Position numbers and translations under genes: made by a program. From Gammaproteobacteria bacterium (lineage in GTDB: Bacteria; Pseudomonadota; Gammaproteobacteria; GCF-002020875): 41,737 bases of DNA. The stretch spans positions 1-41,737 of the forward strand of contig DUYW01000008.1 in NCBI GenBank assembly GCA_013349825.1, given 5' to 3'. The notes under the pieces are model-generated. The model made no database searches, had not been told where the DNA came from, and saw only the letters and a list, made by a program, of their open reading frames with translations. Position 1 is the first letter of the stretch. Every line of letters begins with the position of its first letter. Shown in pieces: positions 808 to 16,823 of this stretch.

Positions 808-1050
808 GTGTTTAAAAGCGTTTTGGTGTTGATTTTTATCCTTCTGTTGTTGATTTTTTCATCACAGAATATGGAGCATGCGGCGATTCATGTGGTTACA
901 GGGAGGCCTCTCCAGGTACCGTTGATCCTGATTATTGCAGGTGCTTTTGTGGCTGGGTATGCAACCGCGCTCTTCACTTTTATCATGAAAGAGTCGAAAC
1001 GCAGGAATAAGAATAGAGATATTGTTGTGAGAGGGCCTGACCGTTTTTGA
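808..1050 (+). CDS. mamL: MamL, small LapA-like magnetosome membrane protein
   Basis: 80 residues with two hydrophobic segments (about 2-20 and 38-58) followed by a basic tail (KESKRRNKN). Size, two-helix layout and basic C-terminus match MamL, a LapA-related protein that in Magnetospirillum is essential for making the magnetosome membrane invagination; the basic tail is thought to act on the inner membrane surface. The start is GTG at 808, preceded by GAGGGG. It opens the magnetosome cluster and is followed after 93 bases by mamM, as in the conserved mamL-mamM order. Confidence 0.85.
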   Translation: MFKSVLVLIFILLLLIFSSQNMEHAAIHVVTGRPLQVPLILIIAGAFVAGYATALFTFIMKESKRRNKNRDIVVRGPDRF

Positions 1051-1143
1051 GTCAATCAGCGGTGGGGTATGTTTTACGATCAGAATTAGAGTTAAGTGTC
1101 TGTTTTGATATAGGTTGAAACAGTTTGGAGTAGAAGGGGAAGC

Positions 1144-2073
1144 ATGAGATATTCAAAGTGTATCAGCTGCGCAAGCTATGTAGGCTGGGTTGGACTGGGA
1201 ACAAACCTGGTCTTGATGATCCTTAAAGGATTTGTCGGTTTTGTTTCAGGCTCACAGGCTTTGGTTGCGGATGCAATGTATTCAGCCAAAGATGTCGTCA
1301 CCTCTCTGTTGGTAATAGTGGGGCTGAAGGTCTCGGGCAGGCCTCTGGACCGTGAGCACCCTTACGGTCATGGAAAGATTGAATTTATCTTGTCAATGAT
1401 CATCAGTGTGGTCTTTCTTGGAGTTACTGCACTGTTGCTGATTCACGCAATTCAGGTTTTAGTCAATGGGGATGTTCATCAAGCGCCACATATTATTGCG
1501 CTGTGGACAGCGATTATCTCAATTTTGGTCAATGTGATGATGTACTTCTATTCACGTTGTGTCTCGATTGAGGTCAACAGCCCTATGGTGCGGACCCTCT
1601 CTCGCCACCACCATGCGGATGCCACCTCATCGGTTGCGGTGGCCCTGGGTATTGTGGGTGCTCATTATCTGGATATGCCCTCAATTGATACCGCTGTTGC
1701 GCTGTTTGAGACGGCTCACCTGATGTATTTAGGGAGTGAAGTGTTCCGTGAAGCCTATAAGGGGTTGATGGACGGGAGTGCGCCGCCGGAGGTACAGGAA
1801 GAGATTCGCCAACAGGCAATGAAGGTTGCGGGAGTTGAAGAGGTTGAGGAGCTGAAGAGTCGACTGGTAGGGCAAGACCTCTGGGTCGATCTGGTGATTC
1901 GCGTTGATGAAGGGATTACTGTAGATGAGGCGAGTGATATCTCGGATGACGTTTCCGATCGATTGATCAGGGTGATTCCGCATATGGGGAGTGTGCACGT
2001 CAAATTTACTGCAGAGTCTGCAGAGCAAGACGGCTCTGACGACTTCGATGGTTATTCTCCGGTTACCCTGTAA
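1144..2073 (+). CDS. mamM: MamM, cation diffusion facilitator of the magnetosome membrane
   Basis: 309 residues, the usual MamM length. A six-helix CDF transport domain (about 10-210) is followed by a cytoplasmic CDF C-terminal domain (about 215-295). Metal-site motifs are visible: ADAMYSAKDV in helix 2 and the HHxxDA motif RHHHADATSS in helix 5. In Magnetospirillum MamM imports iron into the magnetosome vesicle and stabilises MamB by heterodimer formation. The N-terminal YSKCISCASYVGWVGLG segment resembles that of MamB at 6081 (KFEHCKGCRDEVVWWA), with a paired-cysteine motif in both. MamO follows after 16 bases and mamN, usually between them, is absent. Confidence 0.93.
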   Translation: MRYSKCISCASYVGWVGLGTNLVLMILKGFVGFVSGSQALVADAMYSAKDVVTSLLVIVGLKVSGRPLDREHPYGHGKIEFILSMIISVVFLGVTALLLIHAIQVLVNGDVHQAPHIIALWTAIISILVNVMMYFYSRCVSIEVNSPMVRTLSRHHHADATSSVAVALGIVGAHYLDMPSIDTAVALFETAHLMYLGSEVFREAYKGLMDGSAPPEVQEEIRQQAMKVAGVEEVEELKSRLVGQDLWVDLVIRVDEGITVDEASDISDDVSDRLIRVIPHMGSVHVKFTAESAEQDGSDDFDGYSPVTL

Positions 2074-2089
2074 TAGACCAAGGATGAGC

Positions 2090-3997
2090 ATGGACCATCA
2101 AGCAAGATCTGGGCAGGACGTTCAAGGAAAACGGCTCTCCCACAATAATATTATCTTTTGTAAAAAAGGTTGGAGATTACCCGCGTTGCTGTTGGCGGTA
2201 TTTAGTCTGCTGACCTTTCTCTGGGGTTTCTATATTCTGGAGAACTATTTGGAGGAGTTTGAGCTGGAAGAGTATGCCATCAATAGCCTTGAGCTAGGGA
2301 TGGGGAGTGTGACCAGTGGTGGGATGCTGAATGTGGCTGCACAACATTCAGGGGCGCAGCGGGTAGATGTGGTTGGTCAGCAGGTGAAGCCAGCCCTAGT
2401 GCATATTCAGATGGCAAAACAGCAGCAAGGTGTTGGGCCGTTGGCATCAGGTGTGTTGGTTCATCCGGATGGTTATGTGGTTACTGCATTACATCCACTG
2501 CTCAATATAGACAAGCTGCAAGTTGGGATTCCCACGCCACAAGGGCCTCGGCACTATAAGGCAAAACTGATTCAACAGGACCCGGCCCATAATTTGGCAC
2601 TGTTAAAACTGAAAACCAGAGACCGTTTTCTCTACCTTAAACTGGCGGATACCTCTCAAATTACGAGTGGTTACCCCGTCATTGCCATCGGCTTGGGGCA
2701 ACAAGGCATGACGCTGAGCAGCCAGGGAAGTGTGTTGCAACGCGGTGAAGTCATACAGAGTCGGTTGGGAGCAAGTATTACACGTCTGCTCAGGACGGAT
2801 GCAGTGTCTGTCAGTGGGCAGGTGGGTGGGGCGCTGGTCTCCTCCAATAATGAATTGGTAGGTATCAACCTGCCGGTTGTTACGGGGCAGGGGGTTGTGG
2901 ATGGCTACGCAGTCCCTTCACACGTAATTTACCATGCATTTCAAAAAGATGTGAAGTTCACAGTGGGTACAACACTGACCCCGCCTGCAGGGATGTCAAC
3001 ACAGACGCAGGTGGAAGATATGCGTTTTGTCGGGCCAGGCGGCAGTTTGCAGACAGTCAATGTTGCAGCTACGCAAGGTACAAATCCAGCAACAACCAGT
3101 GCTGCACCATCAGGCATGGCAAGTGACGTTGATCATGTGGTGGAGTTTCGCCTCGGTGGGCATACCATAGAAGCGATTATGGGGCTGGGACTGCTGGGAC
3201 TGTTCTCTGGCTTGGTTGGCGGCTTTATGACTATGGGTGGAGGTATTATTCTGGTTTCAGGGATGTTCCTCTTCTTTGGTTATGGTATGTTGCTGATTCG
3301 CCCAGTGGCTTTTGTGACGAACGTCTTTACCTATGGTGCTTCCTCTTGGAAAAATTGGCAGACTGGATTTATCCAGTGGGGGTTAGTCAAACAGCTGATT
3401 CCTTGGGCGTTAGTTGGCGCAGTTGTAGGTTATTTTATTGGTAGTGCAATGAATGATGAGTGGATTGGTTATCTGCTTGGGATTTTTGCCCTCATTATGG
3501 GGGGTAGAACGCTGCATGAAATCTTTAACCACCGTGAAGAGTATGAACTTGAGCTATCAGATGAGGGTGATGAGGGCGATGAAGATCAGGTCTCGGTAGT
3601 TGACCAACTGAAAGAGAATACAACGGTCCGGCATGGTTTGCTGGGTCTTCCAATGGGGTTGGTGAGTGGTCTGCTGGGTATCAGTGGTGGAGTAGTACAG
3701 GTGCCGTTATTACGTTATCTGGAGGATATCCGCTGGAAAAATGCGATAGCCAATAGCTCAATTATGGTTTTTTCGGCCTCTCTGGTTGCAGCAGTGGTCT
3801 CATTGATACATGGTACGGTAATCGGCGCTTATGACTTGATGCAGCCACTGGGGCTGGCGATGGTGTTGATTCCAACCTCATATCTGGGAGGAGTACTTGG
3901 GGCACGCTGGCTGAAGATGGTCTCTGTAGATGGTCTGAAATGGCTCTATGCAGGTCTGATGCTGGTCATTGGAATTAAGATGTTAATCTTGTCTTGA
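2090..3997 (+). CDS. mamO: MamO, degenerate trypsin-like protease fused to a TauE/SafE-type transporter domain
   Basis: About 635 residues, close to Magnetospirillum MamO. Order: membrane anchor (about 30-50), trypsin/HtrA-like domain (about 95-280), then an eight-helix TauE/SafE region (about 370-635). MamO is needed to nucleate magnetite and to activate MamE proteolysis; it is known as a pseudoprotease. Here the triad histidine is kept (TALHPL, His135), but the aspartate position reads Asn (AHNLALL, Asn168) and the GNSGGPL motif reads GQVGGAL with Val245 at the serine position, so it should be inactive as a protease. ATG 2090 is preferred because AAGG at 2079-2082 is well spaced; ATG 2084 is a near alternative. 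No PDZ domain and no CXXCH. Confidence 0.93.
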   Translation: MDHQARSGQDVQGKRLSHNNIIFCKKGWRLPALLLAVFSLLTFLWGFYILENYLEEFELEEYAINSLELGMGSVTSGGMLNVAAQHSGAQRVDVVGQQVKPALVHIQMAKQQQGVGPLASGVLVHPDGYVVTALHPLLNIDKLQVGIPTPQGPRHYKAKLIQQDPAHNLALLKLKTRDRFLYLKLADTSQITSGYPVIAIGLGQQGMTLSSQGSVLQRGEVIQSRLGASITRLLRTDAVSVSGQVGGALVSSNNELVGINLPVVTGQGVVDGYAVPSHVIYHAFQKDVKFTVGTTLTPPAGMSTQTQVEDMRFVGPGGSLQTVNVAATQGTNPATTSAAPSGMASDVDHVVEFRLGGHTIEAIMGLGLLGLFSGLVGGFMTMGGGIILVSGMFLFFGYGMLLIRPVAFVTNVFTYGASSWKNWQTGFIQWGLVKQLIPWALVGAVVGYFIGSAMNDEWIGYLLGIFALIMGGRTLHEIFNHREEYELELSDEGDEGDEDQVSVVDQLKENTTVRHGLLGLPMGLVSGLLGISGGVVQVPLLRYLEDIRWKNAIANSSIMVFSASLVAAVVSLIHGTVIGAYDLMQPLGLAMVLIPTSYLGGVLGARWLKMVSVDGLKWLYAGLMLVIGIKMLILS

Positions 3998-4040
3998 TCA
4001 AGGTGGAAGGTTTGATCCGTTTAGGAATAGAAGAGTAATT

Positions 4041-4895
4041 ATGGCAATCGAAGTACAGTTGAGTGATCTGTTGGGTCTTTATGGAAAAGCAGGAGCACGT
4101 ATTCTGGGGCGGGTGAGTGATCGTTTTATTAACGGTTTTCATCAGGTGTTCAAAATTGATGATGACCTGCGTCATGACTATTTTCGTGACAAGGGGATCT
4201 CTCTTGCGCGCCGTCATCGCTACCTGCAAGCACAAAAACTACTGATTGAATTACATCAGGAGTTCCCGGATGATTTTGAGGTGAGCCTCTATTTAGGGAT
4301 CTGTTACTTCAAAACAGGAAAAAATGAGAAGGCGTTACCACTGTTGGAGTCTTCGTTGAAGGAGCGCCCGGACAATCAGCGTTTACGCTCGGTATTGGTT
4401 AAGGTCTACTCTGTAACGGGCGATCAACAGAAGTTGCTAAAGCTGCTGCGTGAAAATCGAGAGGCTCGGGTGGATGATTATGACGTTAATTTACAACTAG
4501 CCATTGCACTGGATCGCGCTGGTGAGGTAGATGAGGCGATTGAGGTGTTGCAGAAGGTGTTGGAGATTGATGAAGACAGCTTAAAGGCGCACCGTTTGAT
4601 TGCCGTACTCTATGAGTCTCAGGGCGAGAGTAGCAAGGCTTCAACACACCATCGTCGTGTTATTGAACTGGAGGAGGGAGAGATCAAATTATCTCCATTG
4701 ATGGAAGATGAGGATGTGAGTGCTGACAAAGCACCTTCTAAAAAACCATCAATAGAGACAAAAAATGATGAAGACAGTCCTGCAGCGGAGATAAAGGAAG
4801 AGGAGGCAACTGAGCCCGTATCCGATGAGGCGCTGCTGGCAGCAAATGCGGCGCAACAAAAAAATAGCACTAAGGGCAAGGGGCAGGCACTGTAA
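4041..4895 (+). CDS. mamA: MamA, TPR scaffold protein of the magnetosome surface, with a long acidic tail
   Basis: 284 residues. Tetratricopeptide repeats cover roughly residues 45-215 (for example LYLGICYFKTGKNEKALPLLE and LQLAIALDRAGEVDEAIEVL). MamA forms a soluble oligomeric coat on the cytoplasmic face of magnetosomes and serves as a docking scaffold. The usual MamA is around 217 residues; here about 65 residues rich in Glu, Lys and Ala are added at the C-terminus, apparently unstructured. The gene directly follows mamO with 43 bases between, where mamP normally sits, and its stop codon overlaps the first base of mamQ. Confidence 0.92.
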   Translation: MAIEVQLSDLLGLYGKAGARILGRVSDRFINGFHQVFKIDDDLRHDYFRDKGISLARRHRYLQAQKLLIELHQEFPDDFEVSLYLGICYFKTGKNEKALPLLESSLKERPDNQRLRSVLVKVYSVTGDQQKLLKLLRENREARVDDYDVNLQLAIALDRAGEVDEAIEVLQKVLEIDEDSLKAHRLIAVLYESQGESSKASTHHRRVIELEEGEIKLSPLMEDEDVSADKAPSKKPSIETKNDEDSPAAEIKEEEATEPVSDEALLAANAAQQKNSTKGKGQAL

Positions 4896-5752
4896 TGCCT
4901 CTGGGTTACGATGATCAGACGGGTGGGCGGCGAGAGCGGATGAATGAGTCCAAGGACCGTTTACGTGAACTCTACCATGAGGAGATTAATCCTCGTTTTC
5001 ATATGCCTCATATCCCCGGAGCAAAGATTATTCTGGTGATTTCGTTGATCATCTTGACTATTTTTTCTGCGACAGTCCTCTACAAATTTAATGCCTTTAT
5101 TATGATGCAGGAAGAGGTGCTGGCAAAGCGTGGGCACCTAGAAGGGGCATTCCAGCGTAGAGCCAATCTGTTTGAAAACCTGTTGAAGTTAACGTTGAAT
5201 CACGCCTCATTAGAGCATGCGGTATTCTCTCATGTGGCGGATGCGCGTAAGGATATTATCAAAAAGATCAAGTTACCACCGGAGGTTGAAGCTTCGATTA
5301 CCCGTAGTCTGGCCAGTGAGAAGAACCCAAATTTTGATGATTTTGGTAAAGTGATACGAGAGATGAGTCAGGGTGGAATGGAGGCCTCTCTGGGACGACT
5401 GTTAGGTTTGGCTGAGCAATACCCTGATATTAAGTCATCAGAAACCTATAAAGAGATGATGGCCTCATTGGTCCATATTGAGGATCGTATTGCAGATCGT
5501 CGTATGGCGTATCAAGAGAAGGTACGTATTTTTAATACAGAGATCTCAAACTTCCCTTGGTACATCTTGGCTGAAGTAACCCGTTTCCACCGCTTTGACT
5601 ACTTTGTGGCAGAGGAATTTGCGCATCGTCGACCAGAGATACACCGTAATGTATTTGAGCAGTTACTACCCTTTAGTATGGATGGGACTAGAAAACCTGA
5701 TGAGAAATCTGCTGCAGATTCACATCAGAGTGCTGAAGGAGAGAAAGAGTGA
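4895..5752 (+). CDS. mamQ: MamQ, LemA-family magnetosome membrane biogenesis protein
   Basis: 285 residues. A short cytoplasmic N-terminus, one membrane segment (about 43-65, IILVISLIILTIF) and then a long helical LemA-type domain including FQRRANLFENLLKL. In Magnetospirillum MamQ is one of the proteins required for forming the magnetosome membrane. ATG 4895 overlaps the mamA stop codon (TAATG), suggesting translational coupling; an in-frame ATG at 4940 preceded by GAGAGCGG could be the true start and would remove 15 residues before MNESKDRL. The C-terminus is hydrophilic. It overlaps mamR by four bases. Confidence 0.92.
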   Translation: MPLGYDDQTGGRRERMNESKDRLRELYHEEINPRFHMPHIPGAKIILVISLIILTIFSATVLYKFNAFIMMQEEVLAKRGHLEGAFQRRANLFENLLKLTLNHASLEHAVFSHVADARKDIIKKIKLPPEVEASITRSLASEKNPNFDDFGKVIREMSQGGMEASLGRLLGLAEQYPDIKSSETYKEMMASLVHIEDRIADRRMAYQEKVRIFNTEISNFPWYILAEVTRFHRFDYFVAEEFAHRRPEIHRNVFEQLLPFSMDGTRKPDEKSAADSHQSAEGEKE

Positions 5753-6027
5753 ATCCATTGTGGGTTGTGGTTGGGCGTATCGGAACTCTGCTAGGAGTTA
5801 CGATCAGTCTGAAGAACTTGCGAGAGATCCAGTTGAGAGAGCGAAATGAGATTCAGCCTCACCGAATCTATAATACTCGCGAGGCAGCACTCCTTCTTGG
5901 GGTGGAACGGATCGAGGTGGTGGCGAAGTTAACGAAGGGGCAGATTAAAGGGCGCATGGTAAATGGTAATTATCGTATTCCGGGTAGCAATCTGCTTCGA
6001 TATCTGGAAAGTGAAGAGATAGCCTGA
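5749..6027 (+). CDS. mamR: MamR, small protein with an excisionase-like helix-turn-helix
   Basis: 92 residues, GTG start inside the end of mamQ (GTGA overlap). The C-terminal 60 residues (PHRIYNTREAALLLGVERIEV ... NYRIPGSNLLRYL, written in two parts) match the MamR pattern of a MerR/excisionase-type DNA-binding fold; the N-terminal 30 residues are hydrophobic. MamR of Magnetospirillum affects crystal number and size, and its mechanism is not settled. Its place between mamQ and mamB is the conserved one. Confidence 0.9.
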   Translation: MNPLWVVVGRIGTLLGVTISLKNLREIQLRERNEIQPHRIYNTREAALLLGVERIEVVAKLTKGQIKGRMVNGNYRIPGSNLLRYLESEEIA

Positions 6028-6080
6028 AAGGGTTAGCTCCATAGAGACATATAAATTCAGTGAAAGGTTCAGCATAGATT

Positions 6081-7031
6081 ATGAAATTTGAACATTGTAA
6101 AGGTTGTCGTGACGAGGTGGTCTGGTGGGCCTTTCTGGTAAATATTGGGCAGATGATCTATAAAGGGTTGTTGGGTACCATGACCGGCAGCGCAGCACTG
6201 GTCGCGGATGCGATGCACTCAGGGGCAGATGTTGTTGCGAGTGGAGTGACCATGGCAAGCTTGAAGCTCTCTAACCGCCCTGCTGATGAGAAGCATCCGT
6301 ATGGTTATGGCAATATTCAGTTTATCTCCTCTTCTATTGTTGGCCTCATCCTGATTTTTGGTGCAATCTATCTGATCTATGAGTCTGTTTCGGGGATCAT
6401 TGCTGGGGATATCTCTGAGCCCAATCCAATGGCTCTGCTGGGTGCGCTGATTTCAGCGTTGACCAATGAAATTATGTACCGCTACCAGAGCTGTGTAGGG
6501 ACAGAAAACAAGAGCCCTGCCATCATGGCCAATGCCTGGGATAACCGCTCGGATGCGCTCTCCTCAGTAGGTGTTTTGGTCGGTATTGGTATTGCGGTGA
6601 TGGGGTTCCCGATTGCTGATAATATTGCTGCGGTGGTGGTTGGATTCATGGTCATCCATATTGGTATTGAATTGAACCAGGAAGCAATCTCTGGGTTGAT
6701 GGATTCAACACTCGATATCGATGATTTGAAACAGGTTTATGATCTCTCCCAGGAGATTGAAGGGGTGATTGGGGTCGTCTATCTAAGAGGGCGTCATGTG
6801 GGCGAAGAGATGCATGTGGATATGAATCTCCACGTTGATAAGGGGTTGAGCGTCAAAGAGGGTGATCAGATTGTTCGCTGGGTTAAAGAGAAGATCAGCT
6901 ATGAAATGGAACACATTCATGATATTCGTGTCACATTGACGCCCGCGCAGGTGGTCAAGGGAGGACGCACGGGTCGTAAAAGCAGTGGTACCGGTCATGG
7001 TGGGGACATTCCGGTGGTAACCATCAACTAA
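6081..7031 (+). CDS. mamB: MamB, cation diffusion facilitator and magnetosome membrane organiser
   Basis: 316 residues with a six-helix CDF domain and a C-terminal cytoplasmic domain. Metal-site residues are visible in ADAMHSGADVV (helix 2) and AWDNRSDALSS (helix 5, Asp-x3-Asp). MamB is essential for magnetosome vesicle formation and for iron transport, and pairs with MamM. It is paralogous to mamM at 1144; the MamM helix-5 motif has His where MamB has Asp, the usual difference between the two. The C-terminus ends in a Gly/Arg-rich tail (GGRTGRKSSGTGHGG). A 53-base gap separates it from mamR, and mamS follows after 28 bases. Confidence 0.95.
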   Translation: MKFEHCKGCRDEVVWWAFLVNIGQMIYKGLLGTMTGSAALVADAMHSGADVVASGVTMASLKLSNRPADEKHPYGYGNIQFISSSIVGLILIFGAIYLIYESVSGIIAGDISEPNPMALLGALISALTNEIMYRYQSCVGTENKSPAIMANAWDNRSDALSSVGVLVGIGIAVMGFPIADNIAAVVVGFMVIHIGIELNQEAISGLMDSTLDIDDLKQVYDLSQEIEGVIGVVYLRGRHVGEEMHVDMNLHVDKGLSVKEGDQIVRWVKEKISYEMEHIHDIRVTLTPAQVVKGGRTGRKSSGTGHGGDIPVVTIN

Positions 7032-7059
7032 ATCAATACGGTGCAGCCAGGAGATCACC

Positions 7060-7683
7060 ATGGGTAAACTCTTCTCACAACTCAAGCCAGAGGTGTGGGT
7101 GATGCTGGGTGGTGGAGTACTCTTTACCAGTATCATCCTTGTTGCAATGGTTCCTGGTGATTTGGATGTTGATGTAGCAACGGCGAGAAGTGGTCCTGCT
7201 CAAAATCAGGCTCACCTCCATAGACAGGTGCAGACAGGAGCCGCAGTTAAAGCTAAAACAGACAGTGGAATAGCTCCAGTTAATGCACCGCTCAATCAAC
7301 CCGGAATGGCAGCAGTTCAATGGACGCAGCCCGCACAAGCTCAGACGGTCCGGCAACTGCAGCCCTTTAAAATGGCCACGACAGAACCCTATCAGGGGAC
7401 CGTTTCGCAGATTATAAATCGCGACCCTGGAGGTTGGGGGCAGATCCACTTGATGCTACAGCGTGGTGGTCAGCGTCAGGAGGTTTCTCTAGCGCCGGAG
7501 TGGTATCTCTCTTTTCAGGGGTGTAAGTTTTCAAACGGACAACGTGTTGAGGGGAAGGGATTCCGTTTTGACAAGGTGCGCCCTGATTCTCTGATCTATG
7601 CGCGTCACGTTACGGTCAATGGTGTTCGTTGTCGCCTCCGTTCTATAGAGGGTTTGGCGCTTTGGGGCGATCAGCTCCGTTAA
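7060..7683 (+). CDS. mamS: MamS, magnetosome membrane-anchored crystal maturation protein
   Basis: 207 residues: one N-terminal membrane segment (about 10-32), a low-complexity Gln/Ala-rich linker (about 45-105) and a C-terminal domain (about 108-207) containing SQIINRDPGGWGQIHLML and GCKFSNGQRVEGKGFRF. This layout and the position between mamB and mamT identify MamS, which belongs with MamX-type proteins and in Magnetospirillum controls crystal size and shape. No CXXCH motif is present. The start ATG at 7060 follows CAGGAG. Somewhat longer than the typical 180 residues because of the linker. Confidence 0.85.
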   Translation: MGKLFSQLKPEVWVMLGGGVLFTSIILVAMVPGDLDVDVATARSGPAQNQAHLHRQVQTGAAVKAKTDSGIAPVNAPLNQPGMAAVQWTQPAQAQTVRQLQPFKMATTEPYQGTVSQIINRDPGGWGQIHLMLQRGGQRQEVSLAPEWYLSFQGCKFSNGQRVEGKGFRFDKVRPDSLIYARHVTVNGVRCRLRSIEGLALWGDQLR

Positions 7684-7707: not shown

Positions 7708-8229
7708 GTGAAGAGAATGGATCGTCTGCTTGCTAAGGCTAGATCGGCATTAACGCCTGCGGTGTGGATCTTTGTGGTGCTGGTGCTCATCGGCACTGGT
7801 TTCTTTTGGAAACAGATGATGCAGGATCCTTCACAGCATGCAGCGACCAATGGCTTGATGGGGCGTTTGCCAAAACCAACAGAACCTTCACTAATGGACC
7901 CTGTGTTCGATTTGATCTCGCCGCAAGAGGAATTTCGTCCGATGCGTGTCACTCATATACCTGCTATTAAGTTGGGGGTAAAAATGCCTCACCCCTATGT
8001 GGGGGTTTGTATCAACTGTCATTTGATAGAGGGTGGGGCAATGGCGGGGGCGCAGGATAAAACTCCCATCGGTGCACTCTACGAAGCCATCAGTAAGAAT
8101 GTAGTGAAGCTTGGTCCTCCTATTAAGGCCACTTCGAAGCGTCCACACCCCGCAGCAGGGCGCTGCATCAAATGCCATGATCTGATTGTAATGCAGCCTG
8201 TTGAAAAGGGGTTTTTCCGCTGGAAATAG
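7708..8229 (+). CDS. mamT: MamT, membrane-anchored double-magnetochrome c-type cytochrome
   Basis: 173 residues with one membrane anchor (about 18-34) and two haem-binding motifs, CINCH at 101-105 and CIKCH at 153-157. Each follows a magnetochrome-type HPYVGVC or HPAAGRC lead-in. Magnetochromes are thought to tune the Fe(II)/Fe(III) balance during magnetite growth; loss of MamT in Magnetospirillum gives smaller crystals. I kept the GTG start at 7708; ATG 7717 would shorten it by three residues. It is 24 bases after mamS and, by lack of gaps, the last gene of the mamL-T operon; 185 bases follow before mamD. Confidence 0.92.
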   Translation: MKRMDRLLAKARSALTPAVWIFVVLVLIGTGFFWKQMMQDPSQHAATNGLMGRLPKPTEPSLMDPVFDLISPQEEFRPMRVTHIPAIKLGVKMPHPYVGVCINCHLIEGGAMAGAQDKTPIGALYEAISKNVVKLGPPIKATSKRPHPAAGRCIKCHDLIVMQPVEKGFFRWK

Positions 8230-8414
8230 TTCTTATTTGCAATTGGAGGGCTGGTTCATTGTAAAGCTGCGCTCGTTAGATGATTTGCAGGGGTTGCTGC
8301 ATTTAGTTGTTGATAATTTAGTTGATTTTTAAGGTGTTTTTGGTGGTAAAGAAGAGACTTCCCTGATACCATTTCAGAAGTAATTAGACGGGGAACCTTA
8401 ATCAGCAGGGGAAG
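8230..8414 (+). other. 185-base gap between mamT and mamD
   Basis: No gene is seen. The stretch is T-rich with several TTGAT-type hexamers but no promoter pair I would defend. It is the largest gap inside the cluster and probably separates the mamL-T operon from mamD-F. Confidence 0.4.
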
Positions 8415-9746
8415 ATGATGGCAGAACAGATTTTAATGGCACAGGTAGATACAGCTAATCAAGTTTCACAGCTACTGGCTGCATCTGGAAGTAAAACTTT
8501 CACGGTTGGTAAAGTGAGTGCTGTAGCAGGCAATGCAGGGAGCATGATCACGTTGACACCAAGTACCGGGGGGAGTGCCGTTGCTGTCAAGCTGGAAGGT
8601 GCTCGCCAGATGGCGGATATCTCATCACTGGTGGGGAAAACGGTTGCAGTCAGCAAGCCCTCTATGATGGCAGGTGTTGGCGTGGGTAATAATTGGTTAA
8701 TGTTGCAGCCGGTTAAAGCGGGTGCAGCAAAAGTAGCGGCCTCCTCAGCGACCATGCTGAAGCTTGAAGGTGCACGCCAAGGGATGCAGGCAGCATCATT
8801 GACAGGACAAAAATTTACGGTTGCTCAACCGATGATGGCTGGAAAAACGGGGGCCTCTACGCTCTTTCTGCAACCAGCCAATGGGGGTGATCTGGTTGCA
8901 TTAAAAATGGCCAATGCATCACCTGCGATCTCAGGAATGGTTGGTAAAACGGTTACAGTTGGACAGGCCCCGATGGTTGCGGGTGGTCAGCAGGGTGCCT
9001 GGATTGCTTTAAAACCAGCGGCAGGAGCTACAGCAAGCAAGGTGACAGGTGGGGCTGCTGCTGCCAAAGTGGCTGCACCGGCAGCAGTTAAGGCTAAAAG
9101 TGTTGCTATGGTAGCGCCACTGGCTAAAGCACAGACTGTAGCCATGACCTCAACAGTACCTGCTGCTAAAGCGATGTTGGCAAAAGCTGTAGGCGGTGGT
9201 GGTGTTACTGCAATGGCTGGAATGGGAATGGTCACACTACCACCGGGTGTTGAAGTCGAAGGCATGCGTGGTCTGGCGGCAAAAGCTGGAGCCGGAGTTA
9301 AGGGGGCAGGTGCCAAGGCGGTAGAGATGGAAGGCATGCGAAATGGAGTAATGGCAAAAGGTGCAGCTACAAAAGTAGCGGCAGGTAAGGCCGCTTGTCC
9401 GACAGCTACGGCAGGGTTTCAGGCTGGCGGGAAGGTTGCGGCAACAACAAAGGCGGCAACAGTGGTGAAAGCAACTCCTGTAGTCGGTGTTGGTGGTGCC
9501 AAAATGGTCAATGTGGCTGCAGTTAGCGCGAAAGGTGGCTCTGCTGCGGGAGGGGGGATGACTGCTGTTAAGGGGGCTGGTTTTGGTGGTGCAATGGGGC
9601 TGGGTGTTGGTATTTGGGGTACAGTCTTGATCGGTACGTTGGGTGCAGCCGCTGCCTATGGTTACTACCGTAGTCGTCAGATTGAGGCTGAATTATCGGG
9701 TGAAGAACAGAATCATGCTGTCACTACTGCGACAGCCGAAAGTTAA
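8415..9746 (+). CDS. mamD: MamD (Mms7-like) crystal-associated magnetosome protein with internal repeats
   Basis: 443 residues, rich in Ala, Gly, Val, Lys and Met. The N-terminal 200 residues hold about four copies of a unit of roughly 45 residues: KTFTVGKVSAVAG (27-39), GKTVAVSKPSMMAG (74-87), GQKFTVAQPMMAG (121-133) and GKTVTVGQAPMVAG (167-180), with KLEGARQ between units. A low-complexity middle precedes a C-terminal glycine-rich membrane segment (about 395-418, LGVGIWGTVLIGTLGAAAAY) and a short charged tail, the hallmark shared by MamD and Mms6. MamD binds magnetite tightly and affects crystal size. Known alphaproteobacterial MamD is shorter, around 300 residues. AGGGG at 8407-8411 suits either ATG 8415 or ATG 8418. 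Confidence 0.9.
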   Translation: MMAEQILMAQVDTANQVSQLLAASGSKTFTVGKVSAVAGNAGSMITLTPSTGGSAVAVKLEGARQMADISSLVGKTVAVSKPSMMAGVGVGNNWLMLQPVKAGAAKVAASSATMLKLEGARQGMQAASLTGQKFTVAQPMMAGKTGASTLFLQPANGGDLVALKMANASPAISGMVGKTVTVGQAPMVAGGQQGAWIALKPAAGATASKVTGGAAAAKVAAPAAVKAKSVAMVAPLAKAQTVAMTSTVPAAKAMLAKAVGGGGVTAMAGMGMVTLPPGVEVEGMRGLAAKAGAGVKGAGAKAVEMEGMRNGVMAKGAATKVAAGKAACPTATAGFQAGGKVAATTKAATVVKATPVVGVGGAKMVNVAAVSAKGGSAAGGGMTAVKGAGFGGAMGLGVGIWGTVLIGTLGAAAAYGYYRSRQIEAELSGEEQNHAVTTATAES

Positions 9747-9799: not shown

Positions 9800-10123
9800 A
9801 TGGTAGAGGCTGTATTGCAGAGCAAGGGGAGTATGAGGTCAAAAATTCTGGCAATGATGAGTTATCTGGGGATTTTAGTATTTGTACCATTGATCATGAA
9901 TCGGGATGACCAGTATGTCTACTTCCATGCTCGCCAGGGGCTGGTGATCTGGATTATGGGGATATTGGCGATCTTTACACTCTACCTTCCAGGTATCGGA
10001 AAGTTCTTCTTTAGCTCCATGGCAACACTTGTATTGCTCTTCTCCTTGGCTGGTATCGTCTCTGTACTCTTTTATAAAGCGTGGCGTTTACCGTTAATTT
10101 ATACCTTGTCGACGCGATTCTGA
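9800..10123 (+). CDS. mamF: MamF/MmsF-type magnetosome membrane protein (DUF4870-like)
   Basis: 107 residues with three hydrophobic segments (about 17-33, 49-67, 75-93). KILAMMSYLGILVFVPL, then DDQYVYFHARQGLVIW and LYLPGIGKFFF, match the MamF/MmsF family. Members affect magnetite crystal size and shape. The single copy does not let me separate MamF from MmsF; MamF is preferred because it follows mamD, as in the mamGFDC group of Magnetospirillum. A clear terminator follows at 10153-10178. Confidence 0.88.
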   Translation: MVEAVLQSKGSMRSKILAMMSYLGILVFVPLIMNRDDQYVYFHARQGLVIWIMGILAIFTLYLPGIGKFFFSSMATLVLLFSLAGIVSVLFYKAWRLPLIYTLSTRF

Positions 10124-10152
10124 TCAACCTAGGAAGATCTCTGGTATTCTGT

Positions 10153-10178
10153 ACGGCCCACTGATGTGGGTCGTTTTT
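10153..10178 (+). terminator. intrinsic terminator after mamF
   Basis: A 9-base stem ACGGCCCAC (10153-10161) pairs with GTGGGTCGT (10166-10174), with one G-U pair and a four-base loop, followed by a run of five T. It separates mamD-F from mamH, so mamH needs readthrough or its own promoter; only about 30 bases lie between terminator and mamH and I see no clear promoter there. Confidence 0.8.
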
Positions 10179-10208
10179 CGTAATCGTTCATTGTGAGTAG
10201 GGTCATCC

Positions 10209-11492
10209 ATGCAGCAAAAACTTGAGGGGTATCATAGAAATACACTCTATTTGCTCTCTGCTATCTGTATGATTTTTATGACCATGGTGTTGGCAATCCA
10301 ACCCATTTTCTTGCGTACTGTGCTGGATGTTAGTGCCGATGACGCGGGGATGATCAATGCGACTGTGCAGACAGTCACAGAAGTTTTCGATCTGTTGTTT
10401 GTAGGCTATCTGGGGTATCTCTCAGACCGTTTTGGTCGTGTTCCAGTGGTTATTTATGGCTTTCTTGTTGCAGCATTGGGTGCTCTGATTATCCCCTCCA
10501 GTCTCGAAATTGGACTCTGGTTGGGGATGAGTGGACTTACTATCTTCTATCTAATGCGCATTATTATGTCTCTGGGCACGGCTGCAGTCTGGCCTCAGCT
10601 TGCAGCACTTGCCGGGGATTTCTCAGACCAGAAGGGGCGAGCATCGATGATGGCAAATGCCGCATTTATGATGTCCTTCGGGGCGACACTGGTGTATGCA
10701 GTGATTATGCAGATTCCACAACACGCTGGTCTGATGGCAACGATGTATCTGGTTGTAGCGGTTGCATTATTGGGGGCCTGGTTCGCGCAGCGTTCATTGA
10801 TTGATGTAGCGGTACGCCTAGATGAGCCAGAGATTCCATGGAGGAAAGTTGCAGCTCTACTAAAGAATGATCTCCGGTTACGGCTCACGTTTGCTTCAGC
10901 CTTCTCTTCTCGCAATGATATGGTTTTAATCGGTCTCTTTTTAATGCTTTGGTTTGTCTATTTTGCGGACATACACGGCTTGACTCAGGAGGAGGCGGTT
11001 GCTCAGGGAGGGCTACTTATTGGGTCAATCGGGGCGGTTATTCTGATCACAATCCCGATCTGGGGCTGGTTTATTCAGCAGTACGGACGACTACCGGCTA
11101 TTGTGCTGAGCATGTTTCTATCGGGAGCAGGGTTTGCCTCAATGTGGTTTGTGGTCAACCCGTTTCAATGGGAGATCTATATCCCTGCATTGTTGATTGC
11201 GGCTGGCCAGGCGGGCACATTGCTCTCCCCACAGGTGCTGACCATTGATCTGGCACCCGAGGAGATGAGAGGGTCTGTGCTGGGTGCATTCAATACCGTA
11301 GGTGGAATCGGGATGATTCTATTTGTACAGATTGGCGGCATTCTGTTTGATTATTTAGGCCCTTATGCACCATTTGTCTTTACTGGAATCGGAAATCTGG
11401 CTATCATGCTATACGCTTTTTGGGTGCTGCAAAATTGTGAGGAGCCTGTCCCGCCAGGTCGAGAGGATCCAGCAGTGGAGTATGATTTCTAA
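10209..11492 (+). CDS. mamH: MamH, major facilitator superfamily transporter
   Basis: 427 residues with about twelve membrane segments, the usual MamH length. The MFS signature between helices 2 and 3 is visible as GYLSDRFGRVPV. MamH is thought to help bring iron into the magnetosome or the cell during biomineralisation. It is the first gene of the H-I-E block that in alphaproteobacteria starts the mamAB operon; here it sits behind mamF and a terminator, 63 bases ahead of mamI. A non-magnetosome MFS drug transporter is the alternative from sequence alone, but the context argues for MamH. Confidence 0.9.
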   Translation: MQQKLEGYHRNTLYLLSAICMIFMTMVLAIQPIFLRTVLDVSADDAGMINATVQTVTEVFDLLFVGYLGYLSDRFGRVPVVIYGFLVAALGALIIPSSLEIGLWLGMSGLTIFYLMRIIMSLGTAAVWPQLAALAGDFSDQKGRASMMANAAFMMSFGATLVYAVIMQIPQHAGLMATMYLVVAVALLGAWFAQRSLIDVAVRLDEPEIPWRKVAALLKNDLRLRLTFASAFSSRNDMVLIGLFLMLWFVYFADIHGLTQEEAVAQGGLLIGSIGAVILITIPIWGWFIQQYGRLPAIVLSMFLSGAGFASMWFVVNPFQWEIYIPALLIAAGQAGTLLSPQVLTIDLAPEEMRGSVLGAFNTVGGIGMILFVQIGGILFDYLGPYAPFVFTGIGNLAIMLYAFWVLQNCEEPVPPGREDPAVEYDF

Positions 11493-11555
11493 TGTTACTC
11501 CCATCGCTCAGCCATGAGAAAGACAGAATTAAAATAGATGGAAGGAATCTTTAAG

Positions 11556-11900
11556 ATGCCAAGTATTATTGTTGGGTTGTTAGCTTTTGCCATGGGACTG
11601 TGGGGACTTTCCGTTTGGTGGTATTCAGTTGAAGAGCTGTTAAGAGGTATGGTGCCTCTGTTGTTGCTACTGTTTGGCGTGGTTGCATTAATGGCTGGAG
11701 TGAGCCGGGTTGTGGAAATCTCTAATGATGAGAAGAGTGATGAAGAGCTGATAGATCTTGATGATGAAGCAGTTAGTGATGAGCCGGCAGAAAAGCCAAT
11801 AGCTCCTGTTAAGCGAGCCGTTAAAAAGAAGCGTGTGGTTAATAAGCGTGTGGTTAAGAAGACCGCAGAAGCAGGCAAGCAGGAGAAGGAGAGCGAATGA
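11556..11900 (+). CDS. mamI: MamI with a lysine-rich C-terminal extension
   Basis: 114 residues. The first 50 hold two hydrophobic segments with the characteristic MamI pattern MPSIIVGLLAFAMGLWGLSV and ELLRGMVPLLLLLFG. MamI is one of the small proteins required to form the magnetosome membrane. Start ATG 11556 is chosen because GGAAGGA lies nine bases upstream and because MPSII is the family N-terminus; ATG 11538 lacks a ribosome site. MamI is usually about 70-77 residues; here an acidic stretch (SDEELIDLDDEAVSDE) and a basic tail (KRAVKKKRVVNKRVVKK) add about 50. The stop overlaps mamE by four bases. Confidence 0.9.
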   Translation: MPSIIVGLLAFAMGLWGLSVWWYSVEELLRGMVPLLLLLFGVVALMAGVSRVVEISNDEKSDEELIDLDDEAVSDEPAEKPIAPVKRAVKKKRVVNKRVVKKTAEAGKQEKESE

Positions 11901-14086
11901 TCAAGTCGCTACTAAATCCACAAATTACTTGTGGAAGAGATCTACGTAAATACCTCTTTGTAGTGGGCGGAGTAGCAGCCACTATTTTGGCTTCTGTTTA
12001 TACCTATGAATACCAATATTTACCTTATCAGGCAGAGAAACAGCTTCATACATCGGCACCAATCAACCAGTTGACTCCGGCAAATGCTGCGCAAGGCAAT
12101 ACGGTAGCAATGATGCAACCGGTGGCTGCACCGCCTGCACCACCTATTCGTGCCAATGCGCCAACGCCGGGCAACCACAAGCGTGATGGGCGGAATAAGG
12201 TTCCCTGTGCACAGTGCCACAAGATTGTTGGTGGGCAAGGGGTTGCATTTATGCAACCGATGGCGGGGAACAATGGCATGGGGTTGAATGTCAATGCCAA
12301 TGAGGATGCCCCACCCAGTTTTCGTGGGGTAGCGATGGCTCTGCGACCCAGTGTAGTAAACATTAACGCAACTACCACAACGGTTAATATGAATGCCGGA
12401 CAACAAGATGGACAGCTTCACTTTGCAAATCCATCTTCAGGTGTCTCAACAGAGAGTATTGGTTCGGGTATTGTGGCGAGTAGCAATGGGCTTATTTTAA
12501 CCAACTATCACGTTATCAAAGGTGCAACCGGTATTCATGTCACCGTATTTACCGGTATGGGGACCAAACGCCATGTTGCCTCAGTGGTCAAGGTAGATGA
12601 GACATTGGATCTTGCTTTGTTGCGTATTGAGCCGGATCAGCTGCTGACGGTCGCCCCGTTAGGGGATAGTGATCGGGTAGATATTGCACAGTCCGTATTG
12701 GCAATGGGAAGCCCCTTTGGTCTGGACCAGACGGTGAGCCGGGGTATTATTTCAGCGCGTCGTAAATCGATGGTGATAGACAATTTGACGCACGCAGAGT
12801 TGATACAGACCGATGCAGCTATCAATCAAGGCAATTCAGGTGGCCCCCTGATTAACCGCAATGGCATGGTGATTGGCGTTAATACAGCGATCTATACCCC
12901 TACGGGAGCATTCTCCGGTGTTGGTTTCGCGGTGCCAATCAATAAGGCAAAGACCTTCATGCAAGATGAACTCAATACAGGGCAACAAGGACAACCGGTG
13001 GCTTGGGGTGGTGGTATGAATGGTATGGGGTTGAATGTGGCTGCAGGACAGTCAGGGCCGCCGATTCGTGTCGGTGCTGCTGCACCCAATAGCCATAATG
13101 ATGGCCGTAACAAAATGGGCTGTAAAATGTGCCACCAGATTCGGGGCGGTAATGGTGCTGTAGCGGGGGGTAATGTTGCATTCAATGGAATGGCGATGAA
13201 TGTAGTTACTCCGGGAGTGCCTCCTGTGATTCTGGCGAAGGCAGCCCCTCCAGGTTCACACCAAGCAGATGGCCGTGCCTCAATGATCTGCAGTAGTTGT
13301 CATCAGATTCAGGGAACGGTTCAGGGTAACGTAGTGGCCTTGGCGACCCCGGGTGGAAACAGTGGCATTGGGCTACCTCAAATTCTAACCAACCCCATGA
13401 TGGGATTGAATGTTGCGGGTGGTGCAAAAAATGTGGTTGAAGGGGCTGAATTGGCACCTATTAACCCTCTGTTGGCAGATGAGCTGAACCTTCAGGTTAC
13501 CGATGGCGCATTTGTCTCCACTGTTTATCCCAATAGTGGTGCAGACCGGGCCGGGGTCATGGCTGGAGATATTATTTTTAAACTGGATGGTCGCTGGGTA
13601 TTGACGCCCAAGCAGTTGACACAACGTGTTGCGTCATCGCAGGTTGGAGACAGTTTGCGGCTGGGGATTTATCGTGGGGGAGAACGTATGAATCTCTACC
13701 TGGTGGTGACTGGACAGCAGATAGGCACAGTTGTAAATACTCCATCTAACTCCATGAGCAGTATGGTTGGCGCGGCTAATAATGGCGTAGGGCTGGTGAA
13801 TGAGATTCGCTGGCTGGGGATGGAGTTGAAACCGATTGGCCCGGACGTGGTTGCTAAAAAACCGATGTTACAAGGCAAGCAGGGCAGTCTGGTGAAGGAT
13901 GTTAAAATTGCAACCGTTGCCCAGAGTAGCGGTGTAATGAAGGGAGATGTAGTACTGAAAATTAATAGCCTCTCTGTTGCAACACCCGGACAGCTGGATA
14001 TGGCGGTTGCACAGGCCAACATGCGCAGTGGAATCTTGTTGCTTGTAGAGCGTAACGGGATGAAGCGGTATGTCACGCTCCAATAA
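11897..14086 (+). CDS. mamE: MamE, HtrA-like magnetosome protease with three magnetochrome motifs and two PDZ domains
   Basis: 729 residues. Order: membrane anchor (about 18-36), magnetochrome 1 (CAQCH 104-108), trypsin-like domain (about 143-355) with a full triad His205 (TNYHVI), Asp238 (TLDLALL) and Ser314 (GNSGGPL), magnetochrome 2 (CKMCH 409-413), magnetochrome 3 (CSSCH 465-469), PDZ 1 (about 515-615) and PDZ 2 (about 640-729). MamE sorts magnetosome proteins and, when proteolytically active, matures crystals; known substrates include MamO and MamP. Reference MamE has two CXXCH motifs, both after the protease domain. Each haem site here has a similar lead-in: PPIRANAPTPGNHKRDGRN, PPIRVGAAAPNSHNDGRN, and a weaker third. 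ATG 11897 overlaps the mamI stop. Confidence 0.95.
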   Translation: MIKSLLNPQITCGRDLRKYLFVVGGVAATILASVYTYEYQYLPYQAEKQLHTSAPINQLTPANAAQGNTVAMMQPVAAPPAPPIRANAPTPGNHKRDGRNKVPCAQCHKIVGGQGVAFMQPMAGNNGMGLNVNANEDAPPSFRGVAMALRPSVVNINATTTTVNMNAGQQDGQLHFANPSSGVSTESIGSGIVASSNGLILTNYHVIKGATGIHVTVFTGMGTKRHVASVVKVDETLDLALLRIEPDQLLTVAPLGDSDRVDIAQSVLAMGSPFGLDQTVSRGIISARRKSMVIDNLTHAELIQTDAAINQGNSGGPLINRNGMVIGVNTAIYTPTGAFSGVGFAVPINKAKTFMQDELNTGQQGQPVAWGGGMNGMGLNVAAGQSGPPIRVGAAAPNSHNDGRNKMGCKMCHQIRGGNGAVAGGNVAFNGMAMNVVTPGVPPVILAKAAPPGSHQADGRASMICSSCHQIQGTVQGNVVALATPGGNSGIGLPQILTNPMMGLNVAGGAKNVVEGAELAPINPLLADELNLQVTDGAFVSTVYPNSGADRAGVMAGDIIFKLDGRWVLTPKQLTQRVASSQVGDSLRLGIYRGGERMNLYLVVTGQQIGTVVNTPSNSMSSMVGAANNGVGLVNEIRWLGMELKPIGPDVVAKKPMLQGKQGSLVKDVKIATVAQSSGVMKGDVVLKINSLSVATPGQLDMAVAQANMRSGILLLVERNGMKRYVTLQ

Positions 14087-14118
14087 TAATTAACCAGATT
14101 GAGTGTTGGGAGAGAGGA

Positions 14119-15690
14119 ATGGCAGCGGCCAAAAAGAGAGCAGGGAGTAAGGCAGTTGTGAAAAAAACAGCAGTCAGAAAGAGCATACCCCCAAAAAGCA
14201 CGGCTAAAAAGAAGGCTGTAAAGAAGAAAGCTGTTCAGAAAAAAGTAGTTAAAAAAGCAGCAGTTAAAAAGGTAGCAGTTAAAAAGGTAGCAGTTAAAAA
14301 GGTAGCAGTTAAAAAGGCAGTAGCGAAAAAAACGGCGGCTAAGAAAAAAGTTGTGAGCAAGCGTGCTCCCAGCAAAACAACAACCAGTAAACAGAGAGGT
14401 GGTGAGGTGGTGAAAAGTTCGGTAACCTCAACAAAGAGTTTGAAATCCAGTTCAGTTCAGGCATCAATCCCTCCCGGTTTTGCAGGAACACCTGTGCCTC
14501 AGAAAGAGAGGCCACCGGTTGTTCCGGTAGGTGTTGCAGAGAGAAAGAGTGGGTCAGTGGTTGAGTCTCAGTCAGTCTGGAATCACCTTGAAACCGTTGC
14601 AGAGAAGGTAAAGCAGCCGCCTGTAGAAGAGAATCAGCAGCATTCGAAGCCTCGTACCTTGATTGAAGAGGTTGCGATGAAGCAAGAGCGGGAGGAAACG
14701 GTCTTTAAACTTCGAAAGGCACACCCAAAAGAGGAGGTGGTGGTTGAAGAAACTCACCTTCCGGGAGCGAAACTGAGTAATGCTCATGTAGAGATTCCAG
14801 CGTATCTCTCTATCTGGTCTGGGCAAGAGACACAGAATAATGAAAATAGCAATGAGCATATTCAGCAGGCAGTTGAGTTCGATGCTGCAGAGATGGAGGC
14901 AGAGCGCTCTACCCCTCGGTCAGTCCGACAGCCTGTGATGGGGGCCTCAATGGAGTCTACTGCATCCTACTCACTGCTTGAGCCTCATAGCTCAATGTTG
15001 GCCGCTGTACATACAGTGGCTTCACACTCTGTGGAGAGTAATAATGCGGAAGTTGAGACCATTGAACCTCCTTCAGTTGAATCTCAAAGTCCAGCATCAC
15101 AATATGATACCTCCTCAGATAACGCTTCCCCAGAGGTGATGATAGCTGGAGCGGGATATGAAAATACAAATAGCGAAAGCAAAGTGAGTCAGTCTGAACA
15201 AAAAATAGAGGCAACAGATCGTGAGGAGGTGCCGCCAATGGCTTCAATAGCAAGTAATGAGCAACAACAGGATGATCAGAGTGAAGCTGAAATAGCCGTT
15301 TCGGCTGAAGAAGTTCAGGAGGCCGATGATCCACATTTTGATGCTGCGCTGGATAAAATTGCAGGTACCCGCAGTGAAAGTTCTCAGTCCGTACAGCGTC
15401 GTGAGGCGATTCGCCACTTTACGGAAGGTGTTGTGAAAAAACGGACACAGCGCCGCAACCAGGTGAGCAGTACTGCGCCTGGTTTAACTCAGGATAGCGT
15501 TTTGTCAAAAACATCTACTCAACCCGAAGAGAGCAATGTTGCTGTAGAAGGGGTCGGAGAGGGGGTCTACAATCTTCTGAGCAATGGTGTTAAAGGTGTA
15601 CTGAATATTGGCCGATACAGTGCCATGGGTTTGAAATACGGCATTCAGGATAGCAAAGCTGCAATTGGTAAAATCACCTCAAAAGAGTAG
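14119..15690 (+). CDS. lysine-repeat/acidic protein in the mamJ position
   Basis: 523 residues with no recognisable fold. Residues about 4-95 are Lys/Ala/Val-rich like histone H1 tails (KKVAVKK repeated); about 130-460 is hydrophilic, Glu/Ser/Gln/Pro-rich and probably disordered; the final 40 residues (VYNLLSNGVKGVLNIGRYSA onward) look like an amphipathic or weakly hydrophobic module. It lies between mamE and mamK, where alphaproteobacteria carry mamJ, the acidic protein that ties magnetosomes to the MamK filament. Position and disorder suggest a MamJ-like tether, but MamJ is not conserved in sequence and I see no direct homology. The start ATG at 14119 follows GAGAGG. Confidence 0.75.
   Translation: MAAAKKRAGSKAVVKKTAVRKSIPPKSTAKKKAVKKKAVQKKVVKKAAVKKVAVKKVAVKKVAVKKAVAKKTAAKKKVVSKRAPSKTTTSKQRGGEVVKSSVTSTKSLKSSSVQASIPPGFAGTPVPQKERPPVVPVGVAERKSGSVVESQSVWNHLETVAEKVKQPPVEENQQHSKPRTLIEEVAMKQEREETVFKLRKAHPKEEVVVEETHLPGAKLSNAHVEIPAYLSIWSGQETQNNENSNEHIQQAVEFDAAEMEAERSTPRSVRQPVMGASMESTASYSLLEPHSSMLAAVHTVASHSVESNNAEVETIEPPSVESQSPASQYDTSSDNASPEVMIAGAGYENTNSESKVSQSEQKIEATDREEVPPMASIASNEQQQDDQSEAEIAVSAEEVQEADDPHFDAALDKIAGTRSESSQSVQRREAIRHFTEGVVKKRTQRRNQVSSTAPGLTQDSVLSKTSTQPEESNVAVEGVGEGVYNLLSNGVKGVLNIGRYSAMGLKYGIQDSKAAIGKITSKE
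14260..14319 (+). repeat. 15-bp coding tandem repeat (four units)
   Basis: Units GCAGTTAAAAAGGTA at 14260-14274, 14275-14289 and 14290-14304 are identical; the fourth (14305-14319) differs by one base. Each encodes five residues of the KKVAV pattern. Identical units indicate recent slippage or unequal crossover, so copy number may vary between strains. Confidence 0.9.
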
Positions 15691-15699
15691 GAATTTTTG

Positions 15700-15705
15700 T
15701 ATAAT
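15700..15705 (+). promoter_or_regulatory. possible -10 box for mamK
   Basis: A perfect TATAAT lies in the 104-base gap before mamK. No good -35 hexamer is seen 16-18 bases upstream, so it may be a weak or activator-dependent promoter, or chance in AT-rich sequence. Confidence 0.25.
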
Positions 15706-15794
15706 CACGGCTCATACAGAGAATAAGCTTTAATAATTATCAGGTTTTAATAATTAGTGGGTCGTAACCACAACAACAAAAAAGGTAGGAAAGG

Positions 15795-16823
15795 ATGGAG
15801 AGTAAAGGAAAAGATCTATTAATTGGAATTGATTTAGGGACTTCAAGAACCTCAATTATGACTGATCGTGGCATGAAGACCATGATTGACTCAGTGGTCG
15901 GTTATCCAAAGGATCTGATTGGTGTCAAGCTTTTGGGGGCAACCCATGTCGTCGGTAGTGAAGCTCTGGAGCGTCATTACCTGAACCACTATTTTCCTCT
16001 TGAAGATGGTGTTATTAAAGAGACAGGGGACCGTGACCAGGAGGTTGCTAAAGAGTTGATACGCCATGTAGTGAGCCTTGCTGATCCTCAACCCGGTGAT
16101 CGTGTTTGTGGCATCGTCGGTGTCCCTGCACGTGCTTCTGCCTTTAATAAGGATGTATTGCTTGAGTTGGCACGAGATGTAATGGATGTTGCGATGGTCA
16201 TCTCTGAACCGTTTATGGTCGCTTATGGGCAAGACGTGCTACTCAATAGTATTGTTATTGATATCGGTGCCGGAACGGTTGACCTCTGTGCGCTGAAGGG
16301 GAAGGTCCCCGATGATGAAGATCAGGTAACGCTGATCAAGGCCGGTAATTTTATCGACAACCTGTTGATGGAGTCGATTCAGATGCGTTACCCCAATGTA
16401 CAGATTAATCTTCGAATTGCTCGTGCCATTAAGGAGCAGTACGCTTTTGTAGGTAAGGCAGAGGAGGCAGTGATGGTGACCATGCGTGAGAATGGTAAAC
16501 CAGTTACCGTTGATGTTACTGAAGAGTTAGAGCTGGCCTGTAATGCTGTTATTCCGGATATCGTAGAGCAGATTGAACACCTGGTAACCGGCTTTGATCC
16601 TGAAGACCAAGAGACTGTGCTGGCTAATATTATCGTGGCGGGTGGTGGTTCCAGAATTCGTAACCTCAACAAGGTGATCAGTGAATCTCTGACTGAGTAC
16701 GGTACAGTTGTAGTGAACTGTGTAGAGGGTGCAGATTATGCCGGCTGTCTGGGGGGACTCAAGCTTGCGAGTGATTTACCTCCTGATTATTGGGATCATG
16801 TGGGTGAGATGGTAACTGCATAG
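15795..16823 (+). CDS. mamK: MamK, actin-like magnetosome filament protein
   Basis: 342 residues, the usual MamK length. Actin-fold motifs are in place: phosphate 1 (IGIDLGTSRTS, 10-20), a glutamate in ISEPF (Glu138) at the position of the catalytic residue, phosphate 2 (VIDIGAGTVDL, 154-164) and the adenosine motif (VAGGGSRIRN, about 284-293). MamK polymerises into filaments that align and partition the magnetosome chain. The ribosome site AGGAAAGG at 15787-15794 abuts the ATG closely. It is the last gene of the cluster and ends at a strong terminator. Confidence 0.96.
   Translation: MESKGKDLLIGIDLGTSRTSIMTDRGMKTMIDSVVGYPKDLIGVKLLGATHVVGSEALERHYLNHYFPLEDGVIKETGDRDQEVAKELIRHVVSLADPQPGDRVCGIVGVPARASAFNKDVLLELARDVMDVAMVISEPFMVAYGQDVLLNSIVIDIGAGTVDLCALKGKVPDDEDQVTLIKAGNFIDNLLMESIQMRYPNVQINLRIARAIKEQYAFVGKAEEAVMVTMRENGKPVTVDVTEELELACNAVIPDIVEQIEHLVTGFDPEDQETVLANIIVAGGGSRIRNLNKVISESLTEYGTVVVNCVEGADYAGCLGGLKLASDLPPDYWDHVGEMVTA

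Follow-up and report, generated by a model that had tools for sequence, protein, structure and literature searches.

The magnetosome gene cluster in the 41,737-nucleotide stretch of DNA analysed here (the window) is best read as an organelle cluster of a known kind whose arrangement is new, the product of duplication and differential loss: two old blocks of genes stand in swapped order and are joined between mamT and mamD, a reading to which we give a probability of about 0.55. The window is contig 8 (41.7 kb) of a 274-contig genome of 2,866,084 bp that matches MAG_00172_gam_018, and its attribution to a gammaproteobacterium in the initial annotation was right. The magnetosome clusters of this genome and of five sister MAGs were published by Uzun et al. 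2020 (PMC7449369), and therefore the existence of the cluster is not new. The portions of that paper drawn on here report a cluster with only mam genes for this genome, and their text does not discuss the order of the blocks or a second cluster with O, P and N; the clusters are drawn in its Fig. 2, where the gene order is presumably already depicted. A literature search returned no paper joining "magnetosome gene cluster" with "circular permutation".

Open reading frames and profile searches of the window delineated the genes mamL-M-O-A-Q-R-B-S-T-D-F-H-I-E-(J)-K, all on the + strand at 808-16823. The single-strand cluster of the initial annotation is thus real, but its count of fourteen mam genes plus J was off, as the string that it listed holds 15 mam genes plus J. 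Thirteen genes (M, O, A, Q, R, B, S, T, D, H, I, E and K) are recognized by NCBIfam profiles at the positions below, with E-values that span 1e-18 (R) to 1e-187 (H). The curated cut-offs are exceeded by M, Q, B, D, H, I and K and missed by O, A, R, S, T and E, and mamL and mamF are supported by weaker homology. The genus of the window was represented by six genomes, the window's own (G000) and G001-G005, which are also the sole members of its order that were compared. The features are as follows:

253..651, + strand: RRup, stand-alone response regulator of the left flank (PF00072), 48% identical to RRdn
808..1050, + strand: mamL, by position and homology
1144..2073, + strand: mamM (NF033615, 439 bits, cut-off 350)
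2084..3997, + strand: mamO, pseudoprotease with a TauE domain (NF040961, 587 bits)
4041..4895, + strand: mamA, TPR protein (NF040959, 145 bits)
4895..5752, + strand: mamQ, LemA protein (NF040966, 264 bits, cut-off 250)
5749..6027, + strand: mamR (NF040990, 66 bits)
6081..7031, + strand: mamB (NF033616, 455 bits, cut-off 350)
7060..7683, + strand: mamS (NF040991, 152 bits)
7708..8229, + strand: mamT, two magnetochrome motifs (NF040992, 172 bits; PF18509)
8230..8414, no strand: intergenic T-D junction, at 185 bp the largest gap in the cluster
8415..9746, + strand: mamD, Mms6-like C-terminal part (NF040916, 196 bits, cut-off 100; NF040917, E 3e-8)
9800..10123, + strand: mamF, by homology (sub-threshold PF09685, E 0.007)
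10209..11492, + strand: mamH (NF040986, 622 bits, cut-off 300)
11538..11900, + strand: mamI, Lys/Arg-rich C-terminal extension (NF040963, 87 bits, cut-off 80)
11897..14086, + strand: mamE, protease with magnetochromes and PDZ domains (NF040960, 531 bits)
14119..15690, + strand: J-position protein, Lys-rich N-terminus and conserved C-terminal motif
15795..16823, + strand: mamK (NF040964, 498 bits, cut-off 400)
17251..18000, + strand: ORF of no known family (orf249), kept next to the D-K block in both G003 and G004
18417..18794, + strand: RRdn, right-flank response regulator, likewise conserved in G003 and G004

MamL (808-1050) matched no MamL profile and nothing relevant in NCBIfam, with LapA_dom falling exactly at its cut-off; it is 53% identical to the ORF in the mamL position of nS315bin38 and about 30-55% identical to its counterparts in other proteobacterial clusters. 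MamF, with no profile above threshold, shares 42-58% identity with the ORFs in the mamF position of clusters from outside the genus. An overlap of mamO with mamM requires a GTG start at 1991, and the ATG at 2084 is the likelier start of mamO. At the triad positions of MamO, Asp is replaced by Asn and Ser by Val, in agreement with the metal-binding MamO pseudoprotease described in PMC4794232. MamE has an intact protease triad and magnetochromes on both sides of its protease domain, one preceding it and two following it; a single motif N-terminal to this domain is seen in MamE of the window genus (window 11897-14086; L092:3357-5510; L093:2287-4476), unlike the MamE proteins compared from the gammaproteobacterial family f23 and Alphaproteobacteria, in which every magnetochrome motif follows it. 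The J-position protein matched no MamJ profile, only Lys-rich histone H1-like models, and its C-terminal motif recurs in the protein between E and K in G003, G004 and f23 and in the mamK-adjacent proteins of nS315bin38. Seven of the core magnetosome genes mamA, B, E, I, K, M, P and Q (PMC9840458) are encoded in the window, and P lies elsewhere in the genome beside mamO2, a second mamO gene. The Pseudomonadota-specific genes mamH, F, S and T (PMC9840458) are all present, H, S and T by profile and F by homology alone. Judged by its gene content, the locus is a magnetite-type magnetosome gene cluster of the Pseudomonadota.

By the established roles of Mam proteins, vesicle formation falls to L, Q, I and B, and A coats the vesicle. 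Iron and protons are handled by M, B, H and N, iron redox chemistry relies on the haem of P, T and E, O binds metal, and the protease E sets off crystal growth; D and F shape the crystal, and K would set the chain together with the J-position protein. The gene set predicts a chain of magnetite magnetosomes in the uncultured host, which is represented by a MAG. We also observed hexapeptide-repeat proteins (PF00132, left-handed beta-helix) that adjoin a second mamF-like gene in G000 (C75:11017-12114; L126), G003 (L099:2116-3225) and G004 (L009:8324-8803). The C-terminal part of the G000 protein matches the Mms6 and MamD profiles (E about 1e-12), and we know of no described crystal-shaping protein of such make-up.

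For the comparison of gene order we combined a scan of genome contigs, a set of 369 genomes spread over Gammaproteobacteria, six of which (the window's own counted) have a MamB over the cut-off, and direct look-ups. The f23 genomes (G027, G174) have the order I-E-J-K-L-M-N-O-P-A-Q-R-B-S-T-CDF-mms6/D-F-H-I, and a second gammaproteobacterial family, f116, has K-F-L-M-N-O-P-A-Q-B-S-T. In nSSYDbin4 (L143), deposited as Alphaproteobacteria, D/mms6-F-H-I-E lies on one contig and E-J-K-L-M-O-P-A-Q-R-B-S-T on another, and its full order assumes that the two are joined at E. The window shares 15/15 directed adjacencies with f23 and 14/15 with nSSYDbin4, as against at most 6 in 20,000 shuffles, so the order is far removed from chance. 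With N, P and the extra CDF gene dropped and the second mamI of f23 collapsed, the window order and each of these two are exact rotations of one another, which bears out the earlier description of the window order as a circular permutation of the usual one. The further suggestion that the crystal-growth genes mamD and mamF were inserted at the joint does not hold, because D/mms6-F-H-I-E is already contiguous in nSSYDbin4, with D/mms6-F upstream of H as in other clusters; relative to the order of that genome, T-D is the sole new adjacency and K-L the sole missing one. nSSYDbin4 and two relatives thus resemble the window in 14/15 adjacencies and in D/mms6-F-H-I-E, but differ from it in having the usual E-J-K-L...T order with P in place. 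Nor is the window order universal in Gammaproteobacteria, a possibility that had been raised, as those of f116 and f23 differ from it and the congener G004 is without the T-D junction.

In trees of the L-T block and of the D-K block, which agree with each other, the window genus groups with nS315bin38, with support of 100 and 97 respectively, and f23 groups with alphaproteobacterial bins, apart from the window. nS315bin38, the nearest lineage outside the genus (L010, L159), resembles the window in that N and P are missing from its main operon, between M, O and A, but differs in that E adjoins L and a separate J-K-J-K unit holds a duplicated mamK; the two mamK copies (L159, G371:C368), each preceded by a J-like protein, lie apart from the E-L contig. 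The magnetosome proteins of f116 (L033, L134, L135) nest within Magnetococcales, and the gammaproteobacterial clusters occupy three separate tree positions, namely f116, f23 and the window clade. These relationships bear on the idea that the T-D arrangement is ancient in Gammaproteobacteria, as in the T-(CDF)-mms6/D-F-H string of f23, and was later lost by G004. f23 indeed has all 15 window adjacencies once its extra CDF gene is dropped, but its D-position gene is nearer to Mms6 than to MamD, it does not group with the window in the trees, and nS315bin38, which is closer to the window, has E beside L; we regard this history as improbable.

Magnetosome genes are present in three genomes of the genus, G000, G003 and G004 (SI037_bin54, L009). 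The latter two share with the window the same blocks (56-96% identical proteins), the same flanking ORFs and the second cluster: the block D-F-H-I-E-J-K-orf249-RRdn is kept in both, and RRup-L-M-O-A-Q-R-B-S-T in G004. However, in G004 other genes follow T and other DNA precedes D, so that T and D lie on different contigs and are not adjacent, and the contig of G003 stops 106 bp before D. The T-D order is not fixed within the genus, and the mamT-mamD junction, whose sharing had been proposed as a check, is absent from G004. The occurrence of T-D in one independent assembly only, together with the different neighbours at both ends in G004, would also fit a false join of two separate contigs of one genome. 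Against this, both blocks lie on the same strand of a 41.7 kb contig, the intergenic gap between them is normal and their G+C is uniform (48.4 and 48.7%), and five sister MAGs have identical genes according to the account in PMC7449369; we consider an assembly join very unlikely.

The apparent loss of mamP and mamN from the main cluster is accounted for by a second cluster, so that a claim that both were lost is to be rejected. A search for magnetochromes recovered, on contig C77 of G003, a Fur-like gene (read from sequence), an ABC-transporter gene, mamO2, mamP and mamN, with scores of 502 bits to NF040961 for MamO2, 290 bits to NF040965 (just under the cut-off of 300) for MamP and 495 bits (cut-off 500) for MamN. 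G000:C139 and G004:C289 carry matching pieces as far as the contigs extend: that of G004 shows the start of O2, and in G000 a two-magnetochrome protein beside mamO2 is mamP cut by the contig end, with mamN seen in G003 only. In the MamO tree, MamO2 falls inside the alpha/gamma clade (support 100) on a long branch of 1.69, as sister to the MamO encoded in the main operons of the window genus and nS315bin38 (SH-aLRT 87, moderate support). This placement, together with the missing N and P, fits a duplication of mamAB followed by loss of different copies, and suggests that the mamAB genes were duplicated and then reciprocally lost. Alternatively, the O2-P-N cluster could have been acquired separately from another magnetotactic bacterium, a notion to which the long branch and the support of 87 lend something; yet MamO2 belongs to the alpha/gamma clade, where it adjoins the main copy, and the genes that accompany O2, N and P, are just those that the main cluster lacks, so we find separate acquisition doubtful. 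In Alphaproteobacteria, including Terasakiella SH-1, in which MamO is the diverged copy, and AMB-1, mamAB operons are documented to have been duplicated and then to have lost different paralogues (PMC6819731). The window lineage resembles these cases, but differs in that the remnant keeps the sole copies found of mamP and mamN and that the main cluster is permuted.

We infer that such duplication and reciprocal loss also lie behind the observed gene order. The building blocks would be D-F-H-I-E-J-K and L-M-(N)-O-(P)-A-Q-R-B-S-T, and the ancestor most likely had the usual D-F-H-I-E-J-K-L...T order. The cluster, or a large share of its mamAB part, would have been duplicated and different copies then lost, with the main copy retaining most genes and losing N and P, and the remnant retaining O2, P and N beside the Fur-like and ABC-transporter genes. 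The same process would have opened the K-L link and closed the T-D link, with related response regulators at both ends. A rotation with related ends could come about either by tandem duplication and deletion of one D-K part and one L-T part, or by recombination that integrates a circle. Limits on this view are that T-D is found in one assembly only and that an intermediate with two full copies was not found among the genomes compared.

RRup and RRdn are direct copies at the two cluster ends, 48% identical, and are the sole two matches at E <= 1e-22 in G000; the only repeat between the ends is a 165-bp, 64% match within the regulator genes. These regulators, with the exact rotation, could point to excision of the whole cluster as a circle, T closing to D, and its re-insertion by recombination in a response-regulator gene between K and L, by which each end would have received one regulator. 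Such an event is unlikely, as the regulators share just 48% of residues with no chimera visible, the O2-P-N cluster is left unexplained, and in G004 the blocks lie apart, each with its own regulator. With so low an identity the pair may be unrelated to the rearrangement, and it is too diverged to show a crossover. Duplication with differential loss, the preferred reading, has room for the second cluster as its remnant. The size of the T-D gap, the largest of the cluster, suggests that the D-K and L-T parts may be transcribed separately; a promoter scan gave matches no commoner than in shuffles, and a terminator-like hairpin after mamF is a consensus match only.

The contig begins 252 bp before RRup, so that the statement of the initial annotation that genes on both sides are gammaproteobacterial has only the right side to draw on. 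There, ndk lies downstream of the magnetosome cluster and the ORFs that flank it. The downstream string ndk-rlmN-pilF-rodZ-ispG-hisS-yfgM-bamB-der is, except for pilF, in synteny with E. coli K-12. Features of a recently acquired genomic island were not seen: the G+C of the cluster is 48.5% versus 49.8% in the housekeeping neighbours, no tRNA was found in the window and no integrase among the ORFs searched. In G001, G002 and G005 hscA and ndk are neighbours, and their regions lie close together in E. coli, whereas in G000 and G003 hscA is followed by a gene in the fdx position and a DEAD-box helicase. A simple insertion between hscA and ndk is accordingly rejected, the region being rearranged in G000 and G003 and a clean empty site not having been found. 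The isc-ndk neighbourhood (window 21103-29848; L096, L097, L098, L125, L137) is thus intact in non-carriers and broken in these two carriers. Three ORFs without a clear family at 17251-18000 and 18823-20781 are kept beside the D-K block in carriers and are candidates for unrecognised magnetosome-associated genes. A single ORF at 35863-38046 fuses a DctP-type solute-binding domain to Peripla_BP_6, an odd pairing of periplasmic binding proteins.

The remaining congeners, G001, G002 and G005 (95, 98 and 99% complete), lacked matches to MamB at E <= 1e-85 and to MamK at E <= 0.001. A seven-protein tree rooted with E. coli K-12 groups G000 with G003 (100/100) and G002 with G005 (98/97), with the position of G001 left without resolution. 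A single gain on the carrier branch would be a short account of this distribution, but losses may also have taken place. Tentatively, one genus may thus record the remodelling of a magnetosome cluster by duplication and reciprocal loss, its core set split between a permuted main operon and an O2-P-N remnant and its members with or without the genes; if this is true, both the gain and the split would be datable within a single genus.

Magnetosome gene order is used in arguments on transfer and common origin. As the order here is derived, varies within a genus and consists of two blocks, each moving as a unit, it should not be taken as a sign of lineage. Likewise, with mamN and mamP in a second cluster, a scan of the main operon only would wrongly call a core gene lost. 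The genus supplies close relatives both with and without magnetosome genes.
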